Source: Dryococelus australis (Eukaryota; Arthropoda; Insecta; Phasmatodea; Phasmatidae). Taken from it: 64,000 nucleotides of DNA. The translations under genes and the position numbers were made by a program. Shown one piece after another: positions 7,339-54,710 of the stretch (position 1 is the stretch's first letter; the number at the start of each line of letters is the position of its first letter). The stretch lies in the NCBI GenBank assembly GCA_029891345.1, contig CM057000.1:127199338-127263337 (forward strand), written 5' to 3'. The notes below the pieces were generated by a model. It was not told the DNA's origin. It made no database searches and was given only the letters and a program-made list of their open reading frames with translations.

Positions 7339-7769
7339 TTTTCACGGTAAGCTGGGCTGGACACTTTCGAATGCCCTGCTTAAAATCTGAGGGGCATGTG
7401 TGCATACTGTGTATTATTCCACTGTACGTAAACCTAACTTTGCTATGGGCCTGATCACATGTGTTATGCGTCGGTCAAGCGGAACTGTGAAATTATTATA
7501 AAATAAATATCTTACACTATTTCTGATTCTTACACTTACATGCATTGAAGGAAAAAAAAACACGAGGCTAAGTAAATCGATTCAGTATCCACAAATGTTT
7601 ACCAAACATTTTTCATTCAAGGTTGAAACATGGAGCAACGTTCATTCTGTCGTTACCAACCTTACCAGGCACATGTCACTTAGGGTGCCTATTAAAATAC
7701 ATGCTGGCAGGGGCGGTGGCAACTTCCAAAGGTTGATTTCAAAAGTTCTGTATTAACCGTAAACAGCCA
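7339..7769 (-). mobile_element. MITE-1 copy (about 425 bp TIR element)
   Basis: First of nine copies in this window of a non-coding element. Its ends are inverted repeats built on AAGGCTGTTCACGATAAAGT followed by GAGCACTTTTGAAA. The body carries landmarks in fixed order: CTGCATATATTTTA, TAAAGTTGGTAACG, TAACTTAAATTATTTCTTTC, CACTTGACCGACGCG, ATAAGGCGGA and CTTAAGCAGGGC. This copy reads in the reverse orientation. Flanks look like TA, suggesting a TA or TTAA target, but I could not fix the target-site duplication. No transposase is encoded. Confidence 0.75.
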
Positions 7770-8218: not shown

Positions 8219-8230
8219 ACACATATATAT

Positions 8231-8651
8231 TCTATTCACAATCATGTGAGCACTTTTGAAAGCCCTGCTTAAGATCTACTTGTATACACGTTGTGTAGTA
8301 TACCGCTTTGTATGCAATTAATATTTCCATGAGCCTCATCACTTTATTCATGCGTTGGTCATATGAAATTGTGGAATTATTAAGAAAGTAAATAGGTTAC
8401 AAAACTGCTCATTTTTAAACTTCGCTGCATTAAAGATTGAAAGCGAAAGAAATAAATTAAAGTTATCACAAATGGCAACCTAATCATTATTATTCGACGT
8501 TTAAGATGCGGAACTACTCTTCCATCTATCGTTACCAACTTGACTGGGCGAATGTCACTCAGTGCGCCTGTTAAAATACATGCATGCAGGGCCAGCGATT
8601 TTTTTTTCTGAGGTTAATTTCTAACGTGCTCACTTTATAGTGAGCAGCCTT
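8231..8651 (-). mobile_element. MITE-1 copy
   Basis: Reverse orientation. The left end is CTATTCACAATCATGTGAGC and the right end is GTGCTCACTTTATAGTGAGC then AGCCTT. It contains AAGATCTACTTGTA and TGCGTTGGTCATATG. It sits 12 bp from MITE-X. Confidence 0.8.
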
Positions 8652-8679
8652 TTACTAGATAAATGTGGAAACAGCTGGA

Positions 8680-17426: not shown

Positions 17427-17855
17427 CAGTGGAATGCAACTACTCGAATCAGTGAAAATGACCCCACTTGGAATTGGTAGGAAACCACTGATTGTTTCAG
17501 GGAAGAAAATCTCACTGATTGAATTAATGATGTGAAACAATTTCAATGCTTGAATACGTGTCGGCCAACTGCAGTGGCGAATTAAATTTTGTTTTTATTG
17601 AATTTAGCCAAATAATTACTAGAAGTGAACATATTTACGATATCTTTCTATTTATATTCCGCAATTTATTTTAAATTAAAAAGTAAAAAAAAAAGTAATT
17701 TGGATGTGGCTGTAATTGAGTTCACACACCCTTTCAACTTGGCTTTAAGATGGTGACCTTAACATCAGCGCTACCAAGTGAAGTTGACTAATAAGACAAA
17801 AATAAATGTTTTATAATACTTTTTCGAAAGCGTGTTGTTGAAATTGTAAACCCTT

Positions 17856-18955
17856 CCCAGCAAACACTACCTGTCGGCAAGGTGTCGGCAAATTGTCGGC
17901 CCGATACCTGTACTGTCGGCAAATTGTCGGCCCGATACCTGTACTGTCGGCAAATTGTCGGCCCGATACCTGTAATGTCGGCAAATGTCGTTTCAAAGCC
18001 AGAAGATAGCCATCTGACAATGGCGTGATGTCTTTTTGAGAGATTGCATGCCGTTAGAAAAAAGACAATGGCACGCTCTGGTTTTTTAGGATAACAGATG
18101 GATATCACCGAAAAGATGTCGGCATGAAATTGCAGCGGAAACAGGAAACATGTTGCAGCATATTAAAAATGTTTCTGGGCCGACTCCCACGTGGCATCTT
18201 TGTCTTTTCGGTAAGCTGGCCATTATCTTATTTATTCCGACCCGGTAACGCTTTCAATACAAGGCTCTTTATCCCAATAAAGATATAAATATAATGTATT
18301 TTTGCCGACATACTTTCGAAAGTATTTGAATAGGCAAGATGTTAGCTAGCTCACAATGGCATGATGTATTATTTGAGACCATGTGTTAACCATTAGCATG
18401 ATTCTTTGTGATTATAAATGTGTTATGTAGTAGCCTATGGCATTTGTTTGCTTTAATTTTTTTTTTCATTTGTACAACCATCCCATAGATATACTAAAAA
18501 GTTATAAAAACTATTTCGTTTGCAAACCTCTGAAGAAATATTTTCTAAATAATCAGTGTTTAAAAATGATTAGTTATATTGCAATGGAATGTATGTGTTT
18601 CTTTATAATAATTTTTGTAATGATATATGTAATGGTATATGGGGTTTATCAGCAACTTACCCCGTGGTGTATAGGTTAGTATGCTGGACAATCAATTCAA
18701 GAGTCGTAGGTTCCAATCCCGCACTCGGCAAACAAATGATTTTCGTATCATACATTGTGTTGAGAATGCCATGAACGTATGTAAAGAGGAAATGACAATT
18801 ACTAAAACATTTAATAGAAAAGTTAAGGTTTTTTAATGGGTATACTGCTTCTTTCTAGACATGATGCCGCTGCAGGCCCAGCATCGTAGCGACATCCAGC
18901 CGTCGCAGGCCCGGCATCGTAACATCCAGCCATCGCAGGCCCGGCATATGTGGCG
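17856..18955 (+). mobile_element. Element Z, copy 1 (right end missing)
   Basis: Begins CCCAGCAAACACTACCTGTC, followed by three to four 31 bp subrepeats (CTGTCGGCAAATTGTCGGCC, then CGATACCTGTA). Unique stretches are shared with the copy at 52111: CAGAAGATAGCCATCTGA, AGGCAAGATGTTAGCTAG, and ACAACCAT(C)CC after a T-run. Then come a tRNA-like block at 18660-18733 and three degenerate 33 bp units at 18861-18950 (GACATCCAGCCGTCGCAGGC). The right terminus seen in copy 2 is absent. The homologous terminus occurs inverted at 19029. Confidence 0.65.
18660..18733 (+). other. tRNA-like module inside element Z
   Basis: CCCCGTGGTGTATAGGTTAG resembles an A-box region and TAGGTTCCAATCCCGCA a B-box region, about 50 bases apart. 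The same block occurs at the same place in copy 2 (52926-53000), so it is part of the element rather than an independent tRNA gene. Confidence 0.5.
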
Positions 18956-19028
18956 AAGAGAGTGCACTCACATGTACTATTTGTTTAACAATCCTAACGT
19001 ACCGATTAAACCAAAAACGAAAAGTAAC

Positions 19029-22344: not shown

Positions 22345-22484
22345 ATGCGTTTGATAGTTTTGTGGGGGGCCGCCTCCCACCTAGACCAGCCGGGTTCGAT
22401 TCCCGGCGGGGTTGCTCCCGAATTTTCTCATGTGTTTGAATCGTGCTGGTTTACTCGGGTACCTCCCGTTTACCCCGCTAGTGG
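22345..22484 (+). mobile_element. tRNA-derived SINE, 5' part (interrupted)
   Basis: GGGGGCCGCCTCCCACCTAG then GCCGGGTTCGATTCCCGGCG is a tRNA-like head with a near-perfect B box. GAATCGTGCTGG and CTCCCGTTTACCCCGC match the body of the SINE copies at 30881, 37705 and 43746. The copy stops where the transposon begins and resumes at 28441. Confidence 0.7.
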
Positions 22485-22780
22485 GTTTGCAAATGTACCA
22501 AATCAACGCCCTGTGGGAAGTTTTATGATTCAAGCATGGGAGTGGTGTCAATAACTTCATTATTTAATGCAAAATTAATATTACGGTGGTAGGAGTTTAC
22601 CATTGGTGGCCACTTCAAGTTATCCGCAAAAATCAAAATTGCCGCCAATCTGCTGTACACAATAGTGGTTCTCCTGTTTATCTCGGAAAATACAAAGTCT
22701 ATGGTAAAGTTACCCAATACAAAAAATATTCCTTATAAAATTCTACACAAAAATTGTATTTGGGGTTTCTTTGTACAGGA
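22484..22780 (+). repeat. Left terminal inverted repeat of the transposon
   Basis: Pairs with 28156-28441. Matching blocks, left versus reverse complement of right, include CAAATGTAC, ATGATTCAAGCATGG, CTTCATTATTT, GGTGG, TTACCAT, AGTTAT, TAGTGGTT, GGAAAATACAAAG and the inner ACAAAAAATATT and GTAC. A gap of about 8 bases separates the outermost block from the rest. Confidence 0.8.
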
Positions 22781-22984
22781 GATCATTAAGGAACTATATG
22801 CCAAAGCATATATCAATTTATTTCTCGATGTTATTAAAATACATTTTTGTGGTAAACTAAATTGTAGGTAAGTTTCAAAAGATGTTAGTTGTAACGTGAG
22901 TACCATATGTACATATTCAATTAGTAATATATATTTGTTTTTGTTTCAGATAACCTGTACAAAGAACCTTAATGAGCTTGAATA

Positions 22985-25900
22985 ATGGATGCTGTTTATC
23001 AGTGTAACTTGGCGAAGAAAAGGAAGACAAGCTATGAATCTTGTTGCTTTCTGTGCAACTCGTCATCGTCTGAGAAACTAGTATCCAAACCAACTAATGA
23101 TAGTTACAAGAAACTTGTTGACTGTATAACTGATCGAAAACATTACAGCGACAAGCAATGTGAAAATATCGTAAAACTGTTTGAAAAATGATTTCAGTGT
23201 AAGTTCTATGCAAAAACAAAATATCGCATGTCATAGATCGTGTTATCAACACATGACACATAAAAAGGATATTCAAACATAAAAAAGTACAATGAAATAT
23301 TAAATGAGTCATTGGAAGAGGCACATGCGATTACGTCTGAAAATAGTTCCATTAAATTTACGCGATCTAAAACGAGAAATCATGAAAAAGAAAACTGCTT
23401 TTTTTTTGTGACAGAGCAGGCTCTAAAAGAATAGAATTAAGGAAGGTGTCGACTATTACTGCTGGAAAAAAATTTGTGTCAGGCAATTGAACTAAGTAAT
23501 GTTGACATTTTCCGAGTATGGCTAAGCGAAGCAGTAGATACAAATGACGCTTCATGTAATTGATGTAATGTACCACACCAAATGTTGGACAAAACACGTA
23601 GCTAATGTCCTTCGATCAAAAGATACTGACATAGGACTAAAAAAACCCGAGACATAACAATGAGGTTGCTTCAATGGCAGCATCTGTAGAATATATAAAC
23701 ATACTGGAGCAGGGGCTGCCTTTAAGCAAATATTTAGCATGGATGTCTTGGAAGAGACATATTTAAATATTTGTTCTTGAAACAACGTACGAAATGAGGT
23801 TATGGCACGCACGCAACTGAAAGCTTCATTGAGAACATAACTATCCGGCAAAGATATTGAATTCTCTCATCCAAACCAGGTTAACAAATCGCAGAGAGTT
23901 TCAATAAAATGCACTAGAGACAAACTGGTAGCTGGAGCGGAAAGTAATGGGGATGAAATGATGAGAGAATTAAATGCATTGTTTGAATCTGCAAGTATTA
24001 TAAGAAGTCACATTTTGAAAGCAAAGTCATGGAAATGCGATGGCACTATTCAGAAAACGTCACAGAAATTATTCCACAAGTAATTCAAATGTTCTTCAAA
24101 TGGTGTATTGCAGGAAAAAGTAATGTATTTGAAGAAAGAAGGGCAAAGGACAAAGACGTAAAGAGACGAGCAAGCAATATGTCACAGATATTAATGTCAA
24201 ACAGTCTTTCTCGAAGGCAGGTAGAAAACAAACCAGCTTTAAATTGGAAACGCAACCGAGACTTACCACTCCAGATTGCTTGTGGTTTGACTATTCATAA
24301 AACAACATGTAGTAAATCTTTGATAAAACTCAGGTATTACTTAGGTTGCAGTATTAATTACTCACAAGTCCTAAGATTAGAAACAGATATTGCAAAAAGT
24401 GTTGTAAATATAATGAATGGAAATAATAGCATCTACATACCACCAGATTTGATACCTAATAGGTTTATACATTGTGCTATGGATAATGTTGACTTCTGTG
24501 AAGACACAATTGATGGGAGAAGGATATTTCGTGTAACAGCCATTACTGTGTACCAAGATATAAGAGAATCTGATCGAAATGCTCCAATATCCTTGGCCTC
24601 GTCAAAAAACATGTCATTAACATCTCTACGGGATGCCTTAACAAATATTATTTCATGTACAAAACCTCCGAACTGGAATACATGTTGTCCAGAACCTGTA
24701 GTTTCTGATATTATCCCTCAGTATGGTGTAACATTTAATAATGCAATATGTTGTGACAAAGTTTGCCTTCTTTTGAATGATGCCTTGAATGATGATAATA
24801 CAGCTATCTCCTCCCCTACACGGATTGGTTATAATAGCCTTTTAGGAGAGGTGTAATGTGTTCCTAGGGTATACTTGCGACCTGTTATTCCAGAGCCTCC
24901 AATCAGTAGTTCTGTACAACGAACTGTAATGAGGCTACTAGAAAAACTGAACTACTCCATTACTAAAACAACAAACAAAGTCATCGTTACAGCTGGCATG
25001 GCAATTGATAAATCTTTGAAACAGCTGGAAAGGGCAAAGGAAGATTGCAAAGGCAAATGGATATTAAAGACCGGAGAACTTCACATTATAATAGCTCAAC
25101 TCCGAACGATAGGTGAATTCATATGTGAAAGTGGAATACCTGAACTGTGGGTGGAATGCGATCTATACTCCTCAGTGAATACGAAACAAATTCTCGAAGC
25201 AATACAAGTAAGGACAGCAATTGAAGCCCATTTAACAACATCATCTGCATTACAGATTTTGCGTCTAGAAGAATTTGAAAAGGAAAAACCCAGGAAGGAT
25301 TTTCTTGTTACAGCCTCTACTACATGACTTGGCTGAGAGTTTGCAAGCTAACGATGAAACAAATATCAAGCAAACACATATTGGATAAGTCTCTTTCATT
25401 AAATTAAGTATGATAATTGAAGATATAAATAGATTTGTGAATTACAGAAAAGCAGTAGAGCCAGTCTTCAAGCTGGCATGTTCATATATGGATATGGTGA
25501 AATCTATGTTATGCTTCATCAGAGCAGTTAGAACATCAGATTGGAATCTCAGCCTGGTTTCTCTTAATGACTTCCTTAAATATTTATTTGCTCTTAATAG
25601 GCTCAAATATTCACGGATGATCTCCCCTTATCTTACTGAGATGGATGTATTAGAATCCACAGATCCAGCCATCTGGAAAAACTTCATGGAGGGCAAATGG
25701 GTTGTGAATCGTAATGTAGTGGCATTCTGCGCTCTAGGTGCTGATGAAGCCGAGCACCAGAACCGTAGGTTAAAAGTGCAAGGAGGACTGGTAGGTATAA
25801 CACTGAATGATAATGCAAGAAATCGTTTCTTCCTTGTAAATCCATAACTGAACAGAATATCAAACGAGACAGGAGCTTTGCTAGGGACGAAAACTGTTGG

Positions 25901-27776
25901 ACGGACAAAACAACATGGGCTTCTAGTTACAGCTTAAACACGCCAGGCTCGCAATGTGTCAAAACTAAAAGAAGTGTTTGAAAACTCCACCAACCCTTTC
26001 CAGTGTAAAAACAAGGAACTGACTCACATTCTTACTTAGCGAGTTTTCCCCACAGGATGTGCAAGATTTTGTAGGTAACATTTTAGAAATTAGTAAAAAA
26101 TTACAGGAGTCATTTCTCTCAGAGCGAGTAAATAGCAAAACTAGACAATTTTGGGGTCCAATGTAGAAATACCCCACAAAAACTTGTAGACAGTCAGCAA
26201 AAAAAGGTTAAAGTTGCCCTTAGAGATAAAATAGTATCTACGGAAACGGATGTCTCACTTCTGTCTAGGCTGTTGATCACATCACGAAGCAGAAATGGCA
26301 TAGATATCAATTTCAATCTAAGCAACTATGAATTTTCTGCATTTCCAAAATCATTGTTTGCTAATGATGAAAAAATGCATCACTTTTCAAATAAATCAAA
26401 ACTTGCAGGAATTTTGGAGTCGTCGCAATCAAAATTAGGACAGATTGATGATTATTCACCATCATTACATCCTAGAGAAATATCACAAGGATCAGGAGAA
26501 ATTGCAGCTATAATTGATGGCATTTATTTTATACATGCATACAATAAGCCTAACACCATCAAAACATGTGGCGATCTCGGCATACACTTTAGTAAGCGGA
26601 TTAATGCAAGATTCAGTCAGTAAAATGAAGTACATGTGGTGTTTGATACATACAAAGATGGATCTTTAAAAATGAAGCGAGAGTTTTTCGGCAACATGGC
26701 ACAGAACCTATCCGCTACCAAATCAAATCAGAAATGAAAGGTGACAAAATTTCAATGGAGAATTTGCTTACTCATAACAAAACTTAAAACGAACTTTCTG
26801 AGTTCCTATCTAATCACATAATTCAATATGGTGTGAGTAATATGAAAAACTGTATAGTTAGCTGGAGGGACAAAGTCTCATCAACAGATGGAACAGACGT
26901 TTCAATCCTTCAGACCACACAGGAAGAAGCAGATACAAAAATCATACTACACGGAGTGTACATGTCACATCACGGATTTAAAACAACTCACGTTTTTTCA
27001 CCTGACACAGATGTTCTGGTTTGGCATTAATGCGATTTTCCCAAATTACACCACAGTTTGGAATTTTCCTTGGCCAGGGAATGAAATATATTTGTTGACC
27101 TAGCTCCTATCCACAAGTCACTGGAATTACTTAAAGCTGCTGCTCTCCCAGGACTCCATGCGCTACCGGATTTTAATGGGACTGGATCATTTACCAACAA
27201 GGGGAAGCTTAAGTGGTGGAAAACATTCAATTCTGTTAATGATGACACCTTCTCTGCCAAACAATATCAGGAAAGCTTTGGAGTCATTTTTGTCAGTTGT
27301 ATATTCCAAAATTACAATGACAGATATTGAAGATGTACGATGGTGGCTTTTCACAAAAAAAATCGTGTCAAGATGAAAATATTCCACGCACAAAAGCAGC
27401 TCTAAATCCAGCGCTTTTAATAGCTCGCCTTCAGGCACTTGAGTGGAATCAAGATATAACTCCCCACTCAAATATACCGTCACCATCAAATTTTGGATGG
27501 AAGAATGTTTAAGGCACCTTCGAAACAATTGCATGTACGATAGCATGTGCTCCAGACCTTATAGCAGAACTTTGTAGCTGTACATGCTCCCAACATCATC
27601 GTTGTACACCATGTACCTATCTCACGTGTGGACTAAAGTGTACAGAAAAGTTTAGATGTGAAGGTGATCTGGAAATGTGTTACAATTCCAAGGAGATCGA
27701 CGATGACAATGTAGATGAATTGACTGGATCTTCTATAGAGAGTGAAGAAGAGTTTGGTGATAAAGATTATCATTAA
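22985..27776 (+). pseudogene. Broken EEADT/SPDTDV-family protein of the transposon
   Basis: Relic of a long protein resembling a family I know as multi-copy and uncharacterised in many metazoans. Order of recognisable parts: an N-terminal Cys module (CCFLC at 23039, ATG at 22985) then ACHRSCYQ one frame over (23226-23250). A middle segment at 24060-24856 has PLQIACGL, IHK and the acidic motif DNVDFCEDT. After an in-frame stop at 24854 the same frame continues to 25327 (KTGELH, IGEFICESGI). Next comes WVVNRN and AFCALGADEAEHQNRR, then GGLVGITLN (25410-25847), a segment at 26200-26620, then EEADTK (about 26923) and SPDTDVLVW (26998-27024). LPGLHALPDFNGTGSF follows at about 27150. A Cys-rich tail (CSCTCSQHHRC, CGLKCTEKFRC, MCYN) ends in an acidic stretch before a stop near 27776. 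At least six frame changes and several stops mean it cannot make the full protein. No introns are needed to order the parts. Confidence 0.75.
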
Positions 27777-28155
27777 TAGAAAGTAGACTATTTCTTAATA
27801 GATTTTCGGTTCAGTATTTGTAATTAATTTGGAGCTTTTACTATTCCTTACACTATGTAATTTAACACAAGAGTAATATTCTTTCTTAAATTTTTCTATA
27901 CTTGTATAACACTACAAACTGTTTCTCTTGTAAAACTTTTTCCTCTTGTTTCTTAGATTACTTTTTTATACAATACATATTCCTATCTATCAAACTGATT
28001 GAAAAGTTACATATAAAGTGACTTTAATATAAAGAAGAATACCTTACAATAAAATAAAAAAAGTCTGTAACATTACCGTAGCTTCCAAATGGAGAACAAA
28101 CACAACCAAAAAAAAAAATCGTTCCAAAAAACGGGATGTACTGTATTAAAGGTCA

Positions 28156-28441
28156 CTCGTACAAAAAAAAACCTAAAAACATGTTTTGTGTAAAATTTTA
28201 CACAAAATATTTTTTGCTCTCGGTACCTTTGTCATACCCTTTGTATTTTCCTAGAAAAACAGGAAAAACCACTATTGGGTATGGCAGAGTGGCGGCCATT
28301 TTGTTTTTATGTATAACTTTAATGGGCCACCTATGGTAATCTCCCACCATTGCATTATTGATTCTCCATAAAATAATGAAGAGAATGGCACCACTGCCAT
28401 GCTTGAATCATTAAATTTCCCACGTATGTACATTTGAAACG
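28156..28441 (-). repeat. Right terminal inverted repeat of the transposon
   Basis: Inverted partner of 22484-22780. It reads outward from CGTACAAAAAAAAACC to CATGCTTGAATCATTAAATT, TCCCACGTATGTACATTTG and GAAAC. The polyadenylation-like AATAAA at 28048 lies just inside it. Confidence 0.8.
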
Positions 28442-28493
28442 CAACTATTCCCTTGCATTCCTGCGCTGCTCCATACTCACTTCACTCTCGTTA
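28441..28493 (+). mobile_element. tRNA-derived SINE, 3' part (interrupted)
   Basis: ATTCCCTTGCATTCCTGCGC then TGCTCCATACTCACTTCACT matches the body of the SINE at 31055-31105 (CGGCGCTGCTCCATACTAAC). It completes the copy broken at 22484. Confidence 0.6.
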
Positions 28494-28920
28494 TAGGCTA
28501 TTCACGGAAAAATTTGCACTTTTGAAAGCCCTGTATAAGATCTACTTGTATTCACATTGTGTGTTCTCCCGCCTTATGTGAAATTAACATTACAATGGGC
28601 CTCGTCACTTAATTCATTTGTCGGTCAGGTGAGATTGTAAAATTATTAGGAAAGTAAATATTTTAAAAATATTCTCATTTTTACACTTCAGCACATTAAA
28701 AAGAAACAGAAAGCGATAGAAATAACTTAAGTTATCAGAAATGGTTACCTGGCACTTTTTATTCGACGTTAAGATATGGAACTAGTTTCCCCTACACCGT
28801 TGCCAACTTTACTGGACGTGTGTCACTCAGTGCGCCGGTTAAAATGTATGCAAGTATAGGAGCAGTGACTTTTCTCTTATGTTGATTTCAAAAGTGCTCA
28901 CTTTATTGTGAACAGCCTTT
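28494..28920 (-). mobile_element. MITE-1 copy
   Basis: Left end TAGGCTATTCACGG, right end AAAGTGCTCACTTTATTGTG then AACAGCCTT. Reverse orientation. It directly follows the SINE tail. Confidence 0.8.
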
Positions 28921-28929
28921 AGCTTTCAA

Positions 28930-30880: not shown

Positions 30881-31131
30881 GCGGCCGGCGGTGGTGTAAT
30901 GTCTAGTCTACTCGCCTTCCACGTAGGCATAATACTTCCACGTAGGCATAATCGGGCTCAATTCCTAGCAGGGAAGTTCCCGGATTTCCGTATGTGGGAA
31001 TCGTGCCAGACGATGACGCTGGTCGGCGGGTTTTCTCGAGGATCTCCCTTTCCCCGGCCCTTTCATCCCGGCGCTGCTCCATACTAACATCGCTTCACCC
31101 TCAACGGCTCCCAAGACTTCGATGTTAACCC
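30881..31131 (+). mobile_element. tRNA-derived SINE
   Basis: Head GGCCGGCGGTGGTGTAATGT (A-box region) with a worn B box (CGGGCTCAATTCC). The body has TATGTGGGAATCGTGCCAGA, GTCGGCGGGTTTTCTCGAGG, CCCGGCCCTTTCATCCCGGC and GCTGCTCCATACTAACATCG. There is a small internal duplication (CTTCCACGTAGGCATAAT) at 30918-30954. No poly-A tail is obvious. Confidence 0.7.
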
Positions 31132-43745: not shown

Positions 43746-43985
43746 GCGGTGGTGTGCTGGCCGCACCACTCGCCTCTTACCTAGGCGAACCACTTCGATT
43801 CCGGACGGGGGGGTCTCCCAGATCTTCGCACGTGGGATTCGTGCTGTTGATGCCGCTAGTAGGCAGGGGTTTCCTCGGGGGTGTCCCGTTTCCCCCGCCC
43901 TTTCATTCCGGCGCCGCTTCATACACACCATGCCTTCATCCTCATCGGCTCTCAAGACATCGCTGTTAAGAGCCGTCCAAACCTC
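43746..43985 (+). mobile_element. tRNA-derived SINE
   Basis: Head GCGGTGGTGTGCTGGCCGCA, B-box-like CCACTTCGATTCCGG. Body CACGTGGGATTCGTGCTG, CCCGTTTCCCCCGCCCTTTC, ATTCCGGCGCCGCTTC. Tail GGCTCTCAAGACATCGCTGT. Confidence 0.75.
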
Positions 43986-47751: not shown

Positions 47752-48604
47752 GTCTATTCTCGGATTCTTCACACATTGAGAATCTTACCTTTGAAAAACA
47801 ACCCCATGTATGACGGTGTTTAATTATTTCCTAAATAATATGTGTTATCACAAGCGTTTTATACTTCTGTTAAGGTAAAAGTGCCATATTTTTTTTTTGA
47901 TTAATAGAAATTTTAAATCGTAGCATTTCGTTTATAATTAATATGAATAAAAACAGCGAGAAAGCAGGTGTGTTGGTAACGCCTGGCAGAGGCTGTTCAC
48001 GGCAAAACGAGCCCTTTTCAAAATCCTGCTTAAGAACTACTTGTATGTACGTTGTGTATTCTTCCGCCTTATGTAAAATTTACATTGCCACGGGCCTCGC
48101 CACTTTATTCATGCGTCGGTCAAGTTAAACTGTGAAATTATTAGAAAAGAAAATATTTTTTTCAGAAATATGCTCATTTTTACACTTCGGTGCATTACGG
48201 AAACATAAAGCGAAAGAAATAATATAAGTTATCACAAATTATTACCTAGCACTTGTTATTGAACGTTAAGATGTGGAACTGCGTCCCATCCTACGTTACC
48301 AACTTTACTGGGTGCATGTCACTCAGTGCGCCCGTTAAAATTATGCGCACAGGAGCAGTGACTTTTTTTTTTTAAGGTTGATTTAAAAAGGGCTTACTTT
48401 ATCGTTATCAGTCTTTAAGAAGTAGTTCTTATGCAAAATAATATTACACTTGACGCGCACCAATGCGGTACGCAATCCTTTCGGTGTATTTTTCTATAGT
48501 TGGTTAAGCTTTGTTTGCACTCTGCGAAGGGAATATCTTGAAAGTAGAACTCCAGCAGAGCTTCATATAAGTTGGAAGTGACCGTGAATGGACTACATTG
48601 AGAA
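47752..48604 (+). mobile_element. MITE-X copy split by MITE-1
   Basis: Left half 47752-47989 (GTCTATTCTCGGATTCTTCA through ATATGAATAAAAACAGCGAG and GGTAACGCCTGG) and right half 48417-48604 (GTTCTTATGCAAAATAATAT through AGTGACCGTGAATGG). They are contiguous in the copy at 7801-8218. Confidence 0.75.
47990..48416 (-). mobile_element. MITE-1 copy nested in MITE-X
   Basis: Left end AGGCTGTTCACGGCAAAACG, right end GCTTACTTTATCGTTATCAG then TCTTT. The junctions fall inside MITE-X, between CGCCTGGC and AAGTAGTTCTTATGC. Confidence 0.8.
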
Positions 48605-51643: not shown

Positions 51644-52110
51644 CAGTTAGGATTTTAATACATGTTATTTTTGTTCCAAATTTATCTGACCAAACTTGAT
51701 TGGAAGCAGTTTCTCAGAAAAATTTTACATTGTGACAGGGGCTTAAGGAACTATATTAAAGAGGCAAGTGAAAGATTTTTAAAAAACCCTAGTGTTATTA
51801 AAGCATCGTTGCCCATACGGTGTACGGGCATCATGGTGAAAGTGTTAGAATTGGTCACTATTAACACGTATGTCATCGTCGCTAATGCCGATGAAACTTA
51901 CCATCACCTCACTTCAGTCAGCATTACACCCCCGCCCCTTGAGAAATTTCTAGTTATTCCACTGCGGAGATTGGGTGAAGCGAGTAGTGGGTGCTGTAAA
52001 GGAGAAGAGAGGAACTGTTGGGGTAGCTGGGGCCTTCTTTTATTTATAAGTATTTATTGTATTTATATAAAGACTGTTAACGCGTAACGATCTTAACGAA
52101 GCGAAATGGT
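51644..52110. other. Unassigned, with a 141-codon open frame
   Basis: After the resumed GTTGGC repeat a plus-strand frame spans 51662-52087. Its start lies in the repeat, and no motif is recognised. I do not call it a gene. Confidence 0.35.
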
Positions 52111-52925
52111 CCCAGCAAACAGAACCTGTCGGCAAAGTGTCGGCAATTGTCGGCCCGATACCTGTACTGTCGGCAATTGTCGGCCCGATACCTGTACTGT
52201 CGGCAAAGTGTCGGCCGGATACCTGTACTGTCAGCAACTTTCGTTTCAATACCAGAAGATAGCCATCTGATAACGGCGTGACGTCTTTTTTGAGACAGTT
52301 TGTTTGCCGTTAGAAAAAGGACAACGGCCCACTGTATTTTTTTTTTTTGGATAACCGATGGATATCACCTAAATTATGTCGTCGTGATATCTCACAGCCA
52401 ACATGTCGCCAATAGCAAAAATAATATTCTGGCCCGATCCCGATAGAGCATCTTTGTTTTTTTCGGTAGGCTGTATGTTATCTTATTTATTCCGGCCCGC
52501 TAATGTTTTCGAGACATGGTTCTTTGTCACAATAAAGATACAAATATGTCTTTTTGGCGACAAACTTTTGGAAAGTGTTCTTTGAATAGGCAAGATGTTA
52601 GCTAGCTGTTAATGGAATGATGTCTTTTATCATCTGTTAACCGTTAGCATGTTTTTTTCATGATTTGCATGATTTCATGATGTGTCACGTGGTAGCCCAT
52701 GGAATTTTATACTTTCAATTTTTTTTTTCGTTTGCACAACTATCCGACATATAAATTTAAAAAATAGCAAATACTGTTTTGTTTGCAAGCCTTTGAAGAA
52801 AATTAAGAAACAGTTTTTAAATAATCGGTTTTTTTTAATGATTTGTTACATTGTCATGGGATTTATACATTCATTTATAATAATTTGTGTCGTGATAAAT
52901 TTGAAATTACTGCAGAGTATCAGCA

Positions 52926-53000
52926 GCTTACCCCGTGGTGTATATGTTAGCATGCTGAACTGTCAACTAAAGGGTCTTTGGTTCGTATCCTGCAATTGGT
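52926..53000 (+). other. tRNA-like module inside element Z, copy 2
   Basis: ACCCCGTGGTGTATATGTTA and TTTGGTTCGTATCCTGCA correspond to the A- and B-box regions at 18660-18733. They are diverged from that copy but at the same relative position. Confidence 0.45.
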
Positions 53001-53140
53001 AAGCAAAAGATTTCATATCATAAAATGTGTTGAGAAGTAAATGAAATGAATGTATGTAATGAGGAAATAACAATTACTAAAAATTTAAATCGAAAAGTTA
53101 CTGGTTTTTCATGGTTATACTGCATATTTCTGGACATCAT

Positions 53141-54710
53141 GCCGCTGCAGGACCAGCATAGTGACGACATCCAGCCGCTGCAGGCCCAGCATAGTGACGA
53201 CATCCAGCCGCTGCAGGCCCAGCATAGTGACGACATCCAGCCGCTGCAGGCCCAGCATAGTGACGACATCCAGCCGCTGCAGGCCCAGCATAGTGACGAC
53301 ATCCAGCCGCTGCAGGCCCAGCATAGTGACGACATCCAGCCGCTGCAGGCCCAGCATAGTGACGACATCCAGCCGCTGCAGGCCCAGTATAGTGACGACA
53401 TCCAGCCGCTGCAGGCCCAGCATAGTGACGACATCCAGCCGCTGCAGGCCCAGCATAGTGACGACATCCAGCCGCTGCAGGCCTAGCATAGTGACGACAT
53501 CCAGCCGCTGTAGGCCCAGCATAGTGACGACATCCAGCCGCTGTAGGCCCAGCATAGTGACGACATCCAGCCGCTGCAGGCCCAGCATAGTGACGACATC
53601 CAGCCGCTGCAGGCCCAGCATAGTGACGACATCCAGCCGCTGCAGGCCCAGCATAGTGACGACATCCAGCCGCTGCAGGCCCAGCATAGTGACGACATCC
53701 AGCCGCTGCAGGCCCAGCATAGTGACGACATCCAGCCGCTGCAGGCCCAGCATAGTGACGACATCCAGCCGCTGCAGGCCCAGCATAGTGACGACATCCA
53801 GCCGCTGCAGGCCCAGCATAGTGACGACATCCAGCCGCTGCAGGCCCAGCATAGTGACGACATCCAGCCGCTGCAGGCCCAGCATAGTGACGACATCCAG
53901 CCGCTGCAGGCCCAGCATAGTGACGACATCCAGCCGCTGCAGGCCCAGCATAGTGACGACATCCAGCCGCTGCAGGCCCAGCATAGTGACGACATCCAGC
54001 CGCTGCAGGCCCAGCATAGTGACGACATCCAGCCGCTGTAGGCCCAGCATAGTGACGACATCCAGCCGCTGCAGGCCTAGCATAGTGACGACATCCAGCC
54101 GCTGTAGGCCCAGCATAGTGACGACATCCAGCCGCTGCAGTCCCAGCATTGTGACGACATCCAGCCGCTGCAGGCCCAGCATAGTGACGACATCCAGCCG
54201 CTGCAGGCCCAGCATAGTGACGACATCCAGCCGCTGCAGGCCCAGCATAGTGACGACATCCAGCCGCTGCAGGCCCAGCATAGTGACGACATCCAGCCGC
54301 TGCAGGCCCAGCATAGTGACGACATCCAGCCGCTGCAGGCCCAGCATAGTGACGACATCCAGCCGCTGCAGGCCTAGCATAGTGACGACATCCAGCCGCT
54401 GTAGGCCCAGCATAGTGACGACATCCAGCCGCTGTAGGCCCAGCATAGTGACGACATCCAGCCGCTGCAGGCCCAGCATAGTGACGACATCCAGCCGCTG
54501 CAGGCCCAGCATAGTGACGACATCCAGCCGCTGCAGGCCCAGCATAGTGACGACATCCAGCCGCTGCAGGCCCAGCATAGTGACGACATCCAGCCGCTGC
54601 AGGCCCAGCATAGTGACGACATCCAGCCGCTGCAGGCCCAGCATAGTGACGACATCCAGCCGCTGCAGGCCCAGCATCGTAACGACATCCAGCCATCACA
54701 GGTCCGGCAT
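53141..54710. repeat. 33 bp minisatellite, about 47 units
   Basis: The unit GACGACATCCAGCCGCTGCA then GGCCCAGCATAGT repeats with almost no variation. Rare variants are CCTAGCATA (53481, 54072, 54372), CTGTAGGCC (several), one GCAGTCCCAGCATTGTG (about 54139) and one GCCCAGTATAG. Edge units degenerate toward AGCCATCACAGGTCCGGCAT. Because 33 is divisible by three and the unit lacks stops in most frames, it produces open frames of 500-580 codons on both strands. These are not genes. Confidence 0.97.

Follow-up and report, generated by a model that had tools for sequence, protein, structure and literature searches.

A decayed DNA transposon of probable AcademX type in the stick insect Dryococelus australis, with a predicted DDE core and a flap nuclease in its single protein

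Which type of mobile element is represented by a long gene that stands alone between extended inverted repeats, and does its protein mobilise the element? This question is raised by a locus in the phasmatodean insect Dryococelus australis (GenBank assembly GCA_029891345.1, contig CM057000.1, positions 127,199,338 to 127,263,337 of the forward strand). The whole stretch of 64,000 nucleotides that was analysed is called the window here, and all positions refer to it. We consider it likely that the element is a decayed AcademX-type DNA transposon that moved by cut and paste, spans about 5.96 kb and lies in a tRNA-like short interspersed nuclear element (SINE), and that its one protein is the transposase. 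The element fits AcademX because a predicted DDE transposase core is combined with a FEN1/XPG-type nuclease, the target-site duplication is likely 3 bp and the span is 5.96 kb.

A decayed gene with two nuclease domains

No gene other than the relic was recognised between the terminal inverted repeats (TIRs). Its best relative, the protein P0001 (1623 amino acids, 47% identity), is collinear in tblastn with positions 22985-27737 over almost its entire length, starting at residue 1 and using all three forward frames, and stops are found in eight of the nine P0001-matching blocks. As P0001 is collinear nearly end to end, the relic constitutes one full-length unit that decayed by frame changes and stops. 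The sequence signatures of the relic lie at 24482 (DNVDFCEDT), 25782 (GGLVGITLN), 26923 (EEADTK) and 26998 (SPDTDV), followed by a Cys-rich tail from 27573. A Pfam search with seven pieces of the relic gave chance-level matches only, and a PDB sequence search with its nuclease region returned nothing below E 0.5. The gene and its domains are as follows.

22985-27773, forward strand: decayed single gene, long relatives of about 1600 amino acids; tblastn blocks that run collinearly with P0001 and further relatives in three frames, with stops
23042-23588, forward strand: N-terminal Cys/His (zinc-finger-like) modules; two sets of CxxC and HxxC pairs, present in P0001-P0003 as well as in the relic
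24482-25754, forward strand: predicted DDE transposase core; column conservation, relic residues and an RNase H-like model with best matches to Hermes transposase
26420-27480 (limits estimated), forward strand: FEN1/EXO1/XPG-type nuclease domain (IIDG, VVFDTY, EEADTK, SPDTDV)
27573-27680, forward strand: CXC (tesmin/TSO1-like) Cys-rich tail; Pfam TCR in relatives, LIN54 profile match, relic sequence

Three protein searches, the first two of which scored only 7990 candidates sharing most words, yielded 115 relatives, and the domains were analysed across this family. In the DDE core the first Asp is located in DNVDF and the last Glu follows LGADEA, and column conservation revealed D, D and E to be conserved across the family. 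A structural model built with stretches of nine out of ten relatives predicts an RNase H-like core into which a large all-helical stretch is inserted ahead of the last Glu; Foldseek alone gave nothing credible with this model, and matches to the Hermes transposase were obtained only on re-aligning Foldseek's highest-ranked chains. The core furthermore contains a GxxH motif, in which G and H are invariant in 20 of 20 relatives examined.

The second enzymatic domain has the fold and the seven acidic positions of FEN1/EXO1/XPG nucleases by sequence and model, but, unlike these enzymes, it follows a DDE core within one transposon protein, and its identity to EXO1 is 12%. The ten acidic columns of both nucleases were counted in 66 of the 115 relatives, allowing either Glu or Asp at the position that resembles FEN1 E158 and leaving out the 49 relatives without letters in at least one column; three exceptions were found, namely P0025, P0082 and P0097.

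The Pfam scan of relatives covered 30 of the 115, long ones, and found DUF6589, as well as TCR in seven, MSL2-CXC in one and S_100 in one (the latter was not used), with no helicase family at E 0.01. The tail weakly matches the LIN54 CXC by profile (E 0.005). By pattern it is present in 49 of all 115 relatives, a set with many fragments; among the 66 relatives spanning both nucleases the count is 36. It shares the C-terminal CXC motif with the tesmin/TSO1/LIN54 proteins but here forms just one short stretch at the end of a transposon protein. The N-terminal modules would bind zinc, judging from their Cys and His pairs.

At the position of the second DDE Asp (near 25000) the relic has Gly, and at the D233-like nuclease position, the last metal-site Asp, it has Asn. 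Judged from its sequence, the copy at 22481-28444 is dead and cannot be active, because the frames are shifted, stops are many and one metal-binding position is altered in each nuclease.

A source name is borne by 28 of the 115 relatives and is nearly always 'uncharacterized', 'hypothetical' or a gene number; P0110 is named 'G polyprotein', and P0069 and P0109 carry domain names as well (CXC, DUF6589). Members of the family recur in unrelated animals and on many contigs, including the cnidarians Hydra, Clytia, Paramuricea, Dendronephthya and Actinostola, the sponge Sycon, the echinoderms Patiria, Strongylocentrotus, Apostichopus and Anneissia, the tunicate Styela, fishes and molluscs. Long contigs carry the relatives Hydra vulgaris LOC124811086, Sycon ciliatum LOC135829379, Patiria miniata LOC119734467 and Styela clava LOC120332986. 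Scans of viral contigs and of prokaryote genome contigs confirmed no relative. The contig of the member P0016, 3.3 kb long, bears the label of a bacterial bin (Sedimenticola sp.); P0016 is probably animal host contamination of this bin. A shorter and more distant group within the family is formed by P0030, P0031 and P0032. In P0031 the N-terminal modules are joined to the nuclease and the DDE core is missing from the matches, perhaps because the protein derives from a deletion or because its gene model is wrong.

The leader of the relic contains a further feature.

22868-22949, forward strand: possible intron in the 5' untranslated region, from GTAAGT to TTTGTTTCAG; suggested by the letters alone

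The candidate donor GTAAGT at 22868-22873 and the candidate acceptor TTTGTTTCAG, which ends at 22949, are both good splice sequences.

Ends of the element and its insertion site

The following features define the borders of the element.

22360-22477, forward strand: left SINE part with the B-box-like GGTTCGATTCCC; matches 37878-37723 (reverse), 43868-43928 (forward) and 31026-31094 (forward) up to CCCCG
22478-22480, forward strand: candidate left target-site duplication CTA; same triplet at the other end
22481-22789, forward strand: left terminal inverted repeat; ungapped, gapped and BLASTN comparisons
28146-28444, reverse strand: right terminal inverted repeat; same three comparisons
28445-28447, forward strand: candidate right target-site duplication CTA; same triplet at the left end
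28450-28490, forward strand: right part of the same SINE, CCCTTGCATTCCTGCGCTGCTCCATACTCAC; joined flanks align over the junction to three SINE copies

By gapped alignment, 22479-22789 pairs with 28447-28146 at a score of 254, compared with 203, 108 and 100 for the three highest of 200 random pairs of window pieces, a control in which random pairs can meet other repeats as the window is repeat-rich. An ungapped search found arms of 125, 104 and 42 nt in 22513-22772 versus 28164-28423 with 78-86% complementarity, and the outermost 20-nt pair (22479-22498/28428-28447) is 80% complementary. In BLASTN the arms share 78.5% identity over 279 bp; no further TIR copy was found in the 64-kb window at E 0.01.

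The element interrupts a tRNA-like SINE, of which the left flank is one part while the right flank continues the same SINE. When the flanks were joined in a script, three other SINE copies of the window (starting at 31026 forward, 37878 reverse and 43868 forward) aligned across the junction. As these copies align on either side of it, both element ends are located within about five bases, independently of the TIRs. The interrupted SINE copy is without about 20 internal bases that are present in the other copies. Rfam and tRNA (ARAGORN) scans of the window were empty despite the tRNA-like SINE. The triplet CTA at both ends suggests a target-site duplication of 3 bp, which is likely, with CTA as the candidate; provided that CTA is the duplication, the element spans 22481-28444, i.e., 5964 bp. 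The flanks 22461-22492 and 28437-28470 do not share any 8-mer.

A previous sequence-only reading of the locus had described a coding relic with DNVDFCEDT, GGLVGITLN, EEADTK, SPDTDV and a Cys-rich tail between inverted repeats of about 290 bp, with boundaries at 22484 and 28441, and had assigned the protein to an abundant, mostly unnamed animal family. Every signature was located, gapped alignment and BLASTN confirmed the repeats at about 300 bp, the boundaries lie only a few bases off 22481 and 28444, and the family was recovered with its 115 relatives and almost entirely uninformative names.

The gene could alternatively be a host or viral nuclease gene that was caught by chance between unrelated inverted repeats and does not mobilise anything. 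A single TIR-flanked copy in view and a nuclease of a common repair type would agree with this, but the protein also has the conserved D, D and E with a Hermes-like model, it is the only recognised gene between TIRs that interrupt a SINE, and its relatives recur as described above, so that chance capture is very improbable.

Immediately to the right of the element lies a dispersed repeat some 430 bp long (28492-28921), whose inverted ends are imperfect and which resembles a miniature inverted-repeat transposable element. It is apparently inserted in the same SINE and has at least seven more regions in the window, mostly at 65-80% identity: 44437-44007, 47990-48417, 46657-46231, 8226-8652, 58893-58470, 40837-40524 and 7362-7768.

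AcademX membership and its alternatives

AcademX elements have a single-gene layout, and their nuclease is of the XPG type. The transposon studied here resembles AcademX in its encoded nuclease, its TIRs (22479-22789/28146-28447) and a length near 5.6 kb, its predicted DDE core and candidate 3-bp duplication would agree with the DDE transposase and the 3-4 bp duplications of AcademX, and it is unlike AcademX in that the copy studied is inactive. In the available text of PMC10045372, AcademX duplications are 3 or 4 bp and AcademH duplications 9 or 10 bp, a difference that is tied to the encoded nuclease and helicase, respectively. The mean length of Academ elements is 5565 bp, with 100 of them in a curated library, in the accessible portion of PMC10294476, and Academ is reported from a whitefly in that of PMC9143410. 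The element probably belongs to AcademX, an assignment that rests on architecture, with Academ represented by its published description. The sequence-only reading had assigned this protein to no established transposase class, which is probably wrong, as AcademX has been described as having a DDE core, a nuclease and duplications of 3-4 bp. Its proposal of a mobilising enzyme of a poorly described type is supported as far as the enzyme is concerned, the relic being the sole recognised gene and having the expected enzyme parts, but the type has probably been described already.

AcademH would share the superfamily if the element is an Academ. Its helicase is absent at E 0.01 from the 30 of 115 relatives scanned, its 9-10 bp duplications were not seen and the flanks are without a common 8-mer; AcademH membership was rejected for lack of the helicase. 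The hAT transposons, represented by Hermes, provide the best structural match, with the predicted RNase H-like core and the large all-helical insertion before the last Glu, but the 8-bp duplication of hAT was not found in the flanks, the additional FEN1-type nuclease is present here, and between the second D and E the core has GxxH instead of the C/DxxH motif that is described for hAT, MuDR, P, Kolobok and Dada in the available parts of PMC10045372 and PMC9587614. Membership in hAT was rejected on the duplication and the motif.

Several points weigh against AcademX. Academ is almost confined to bivalves among the taxa surveyed in the accessible portion of PMC10294476, a narrower range than that of the protein family described here. 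Against the 3-bp duplication, the interrupted SINE still has, with one CTA kept, five bases, CTATT, that are absent from the three other copies, so that this SINE copy was different or the duplication is misread. Finally, no paper in the searched literature joins Academ, XPG and transposon. The last point also favours a DDE-plus-flap-nuclease superfamily separate from Academ and so far unclassified, as do the absence from that literature of any paper pairing DUF6589 with transposition, the Pfam label of DUF6589 in the core as 'family of unknown function', and the GxxH motif, which differs from that of the five superfamilies named above. We regard such a superfamily as unlikely, since the published description of AcademX, as far as it is given in the available text of PMC10045372, comprises the DDE core, the nuclease and the 3-4 bp duplications, and the size given in PMC10294476 fits too. 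A specific form of it, a distinct superfamily whose single polypeptide combines a Hermes-like DDE core, with DUF6589 inside it, and a flap nuclease for cutting the second strand in the manner of TnsA in Tn7, so that one animal protein would make both strand cleavages, is improbable.

Elsewhere in the window, a repeat of 1.1 kb is present in two copies (17855-18956 and 52110-53233, 77% identity), each with a tandem array of units of about 30 bp near one end. The copy at 52110-53233 runs into an array of 47 copies of 33 bp at 53133-54694.

Proposed mechanism and meaning

For the AcademX-type element, transposition could proceed as follows. The N-terminal Cys/His modules and the CXC tail would bind the long TIRs, and the RNase H-like DDE core would generate 3'-OH ends and join them to the target with a 3-bp stagger. 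The flap nuclease would cut or trim the 5' (non-transferred) strand, at the ends of the transposon or, after strand transfer, at the joints of the insertion. To this handling of the 5' strand, be it end cutting or flap trimming, we give about an even chance. Alternatively, the flap nuclease might mainly resect the donor break in an EXO1-like manner, with repair restoring the donor copy. This appears rather doubtful, but nothing separates it from trimming of the 5' strand, because one fold is common to all these nucleases and the fold is silent on the substrate. Other roles of the flap nuclease account for the remaining probability.

The analysis suggests a likely identity for a large set of animal proteins that are annotated only as uncharacterized, and it suggests that DUF6589 in Pfam contains part of a transposase core. 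As no paper in the searched literature pairs DUF6589 with transposition, this reading of DUF6589 may be new and may be unpublished. The ten residues named here, i.e., the columns counted for both nucleases, are named because mutating them would tell the roles of the two enzymes apart. If second-strand cleavage is indeed the work of the flap nuclease, this enzyme would constitute a eukaryotic parallel to TnsA.
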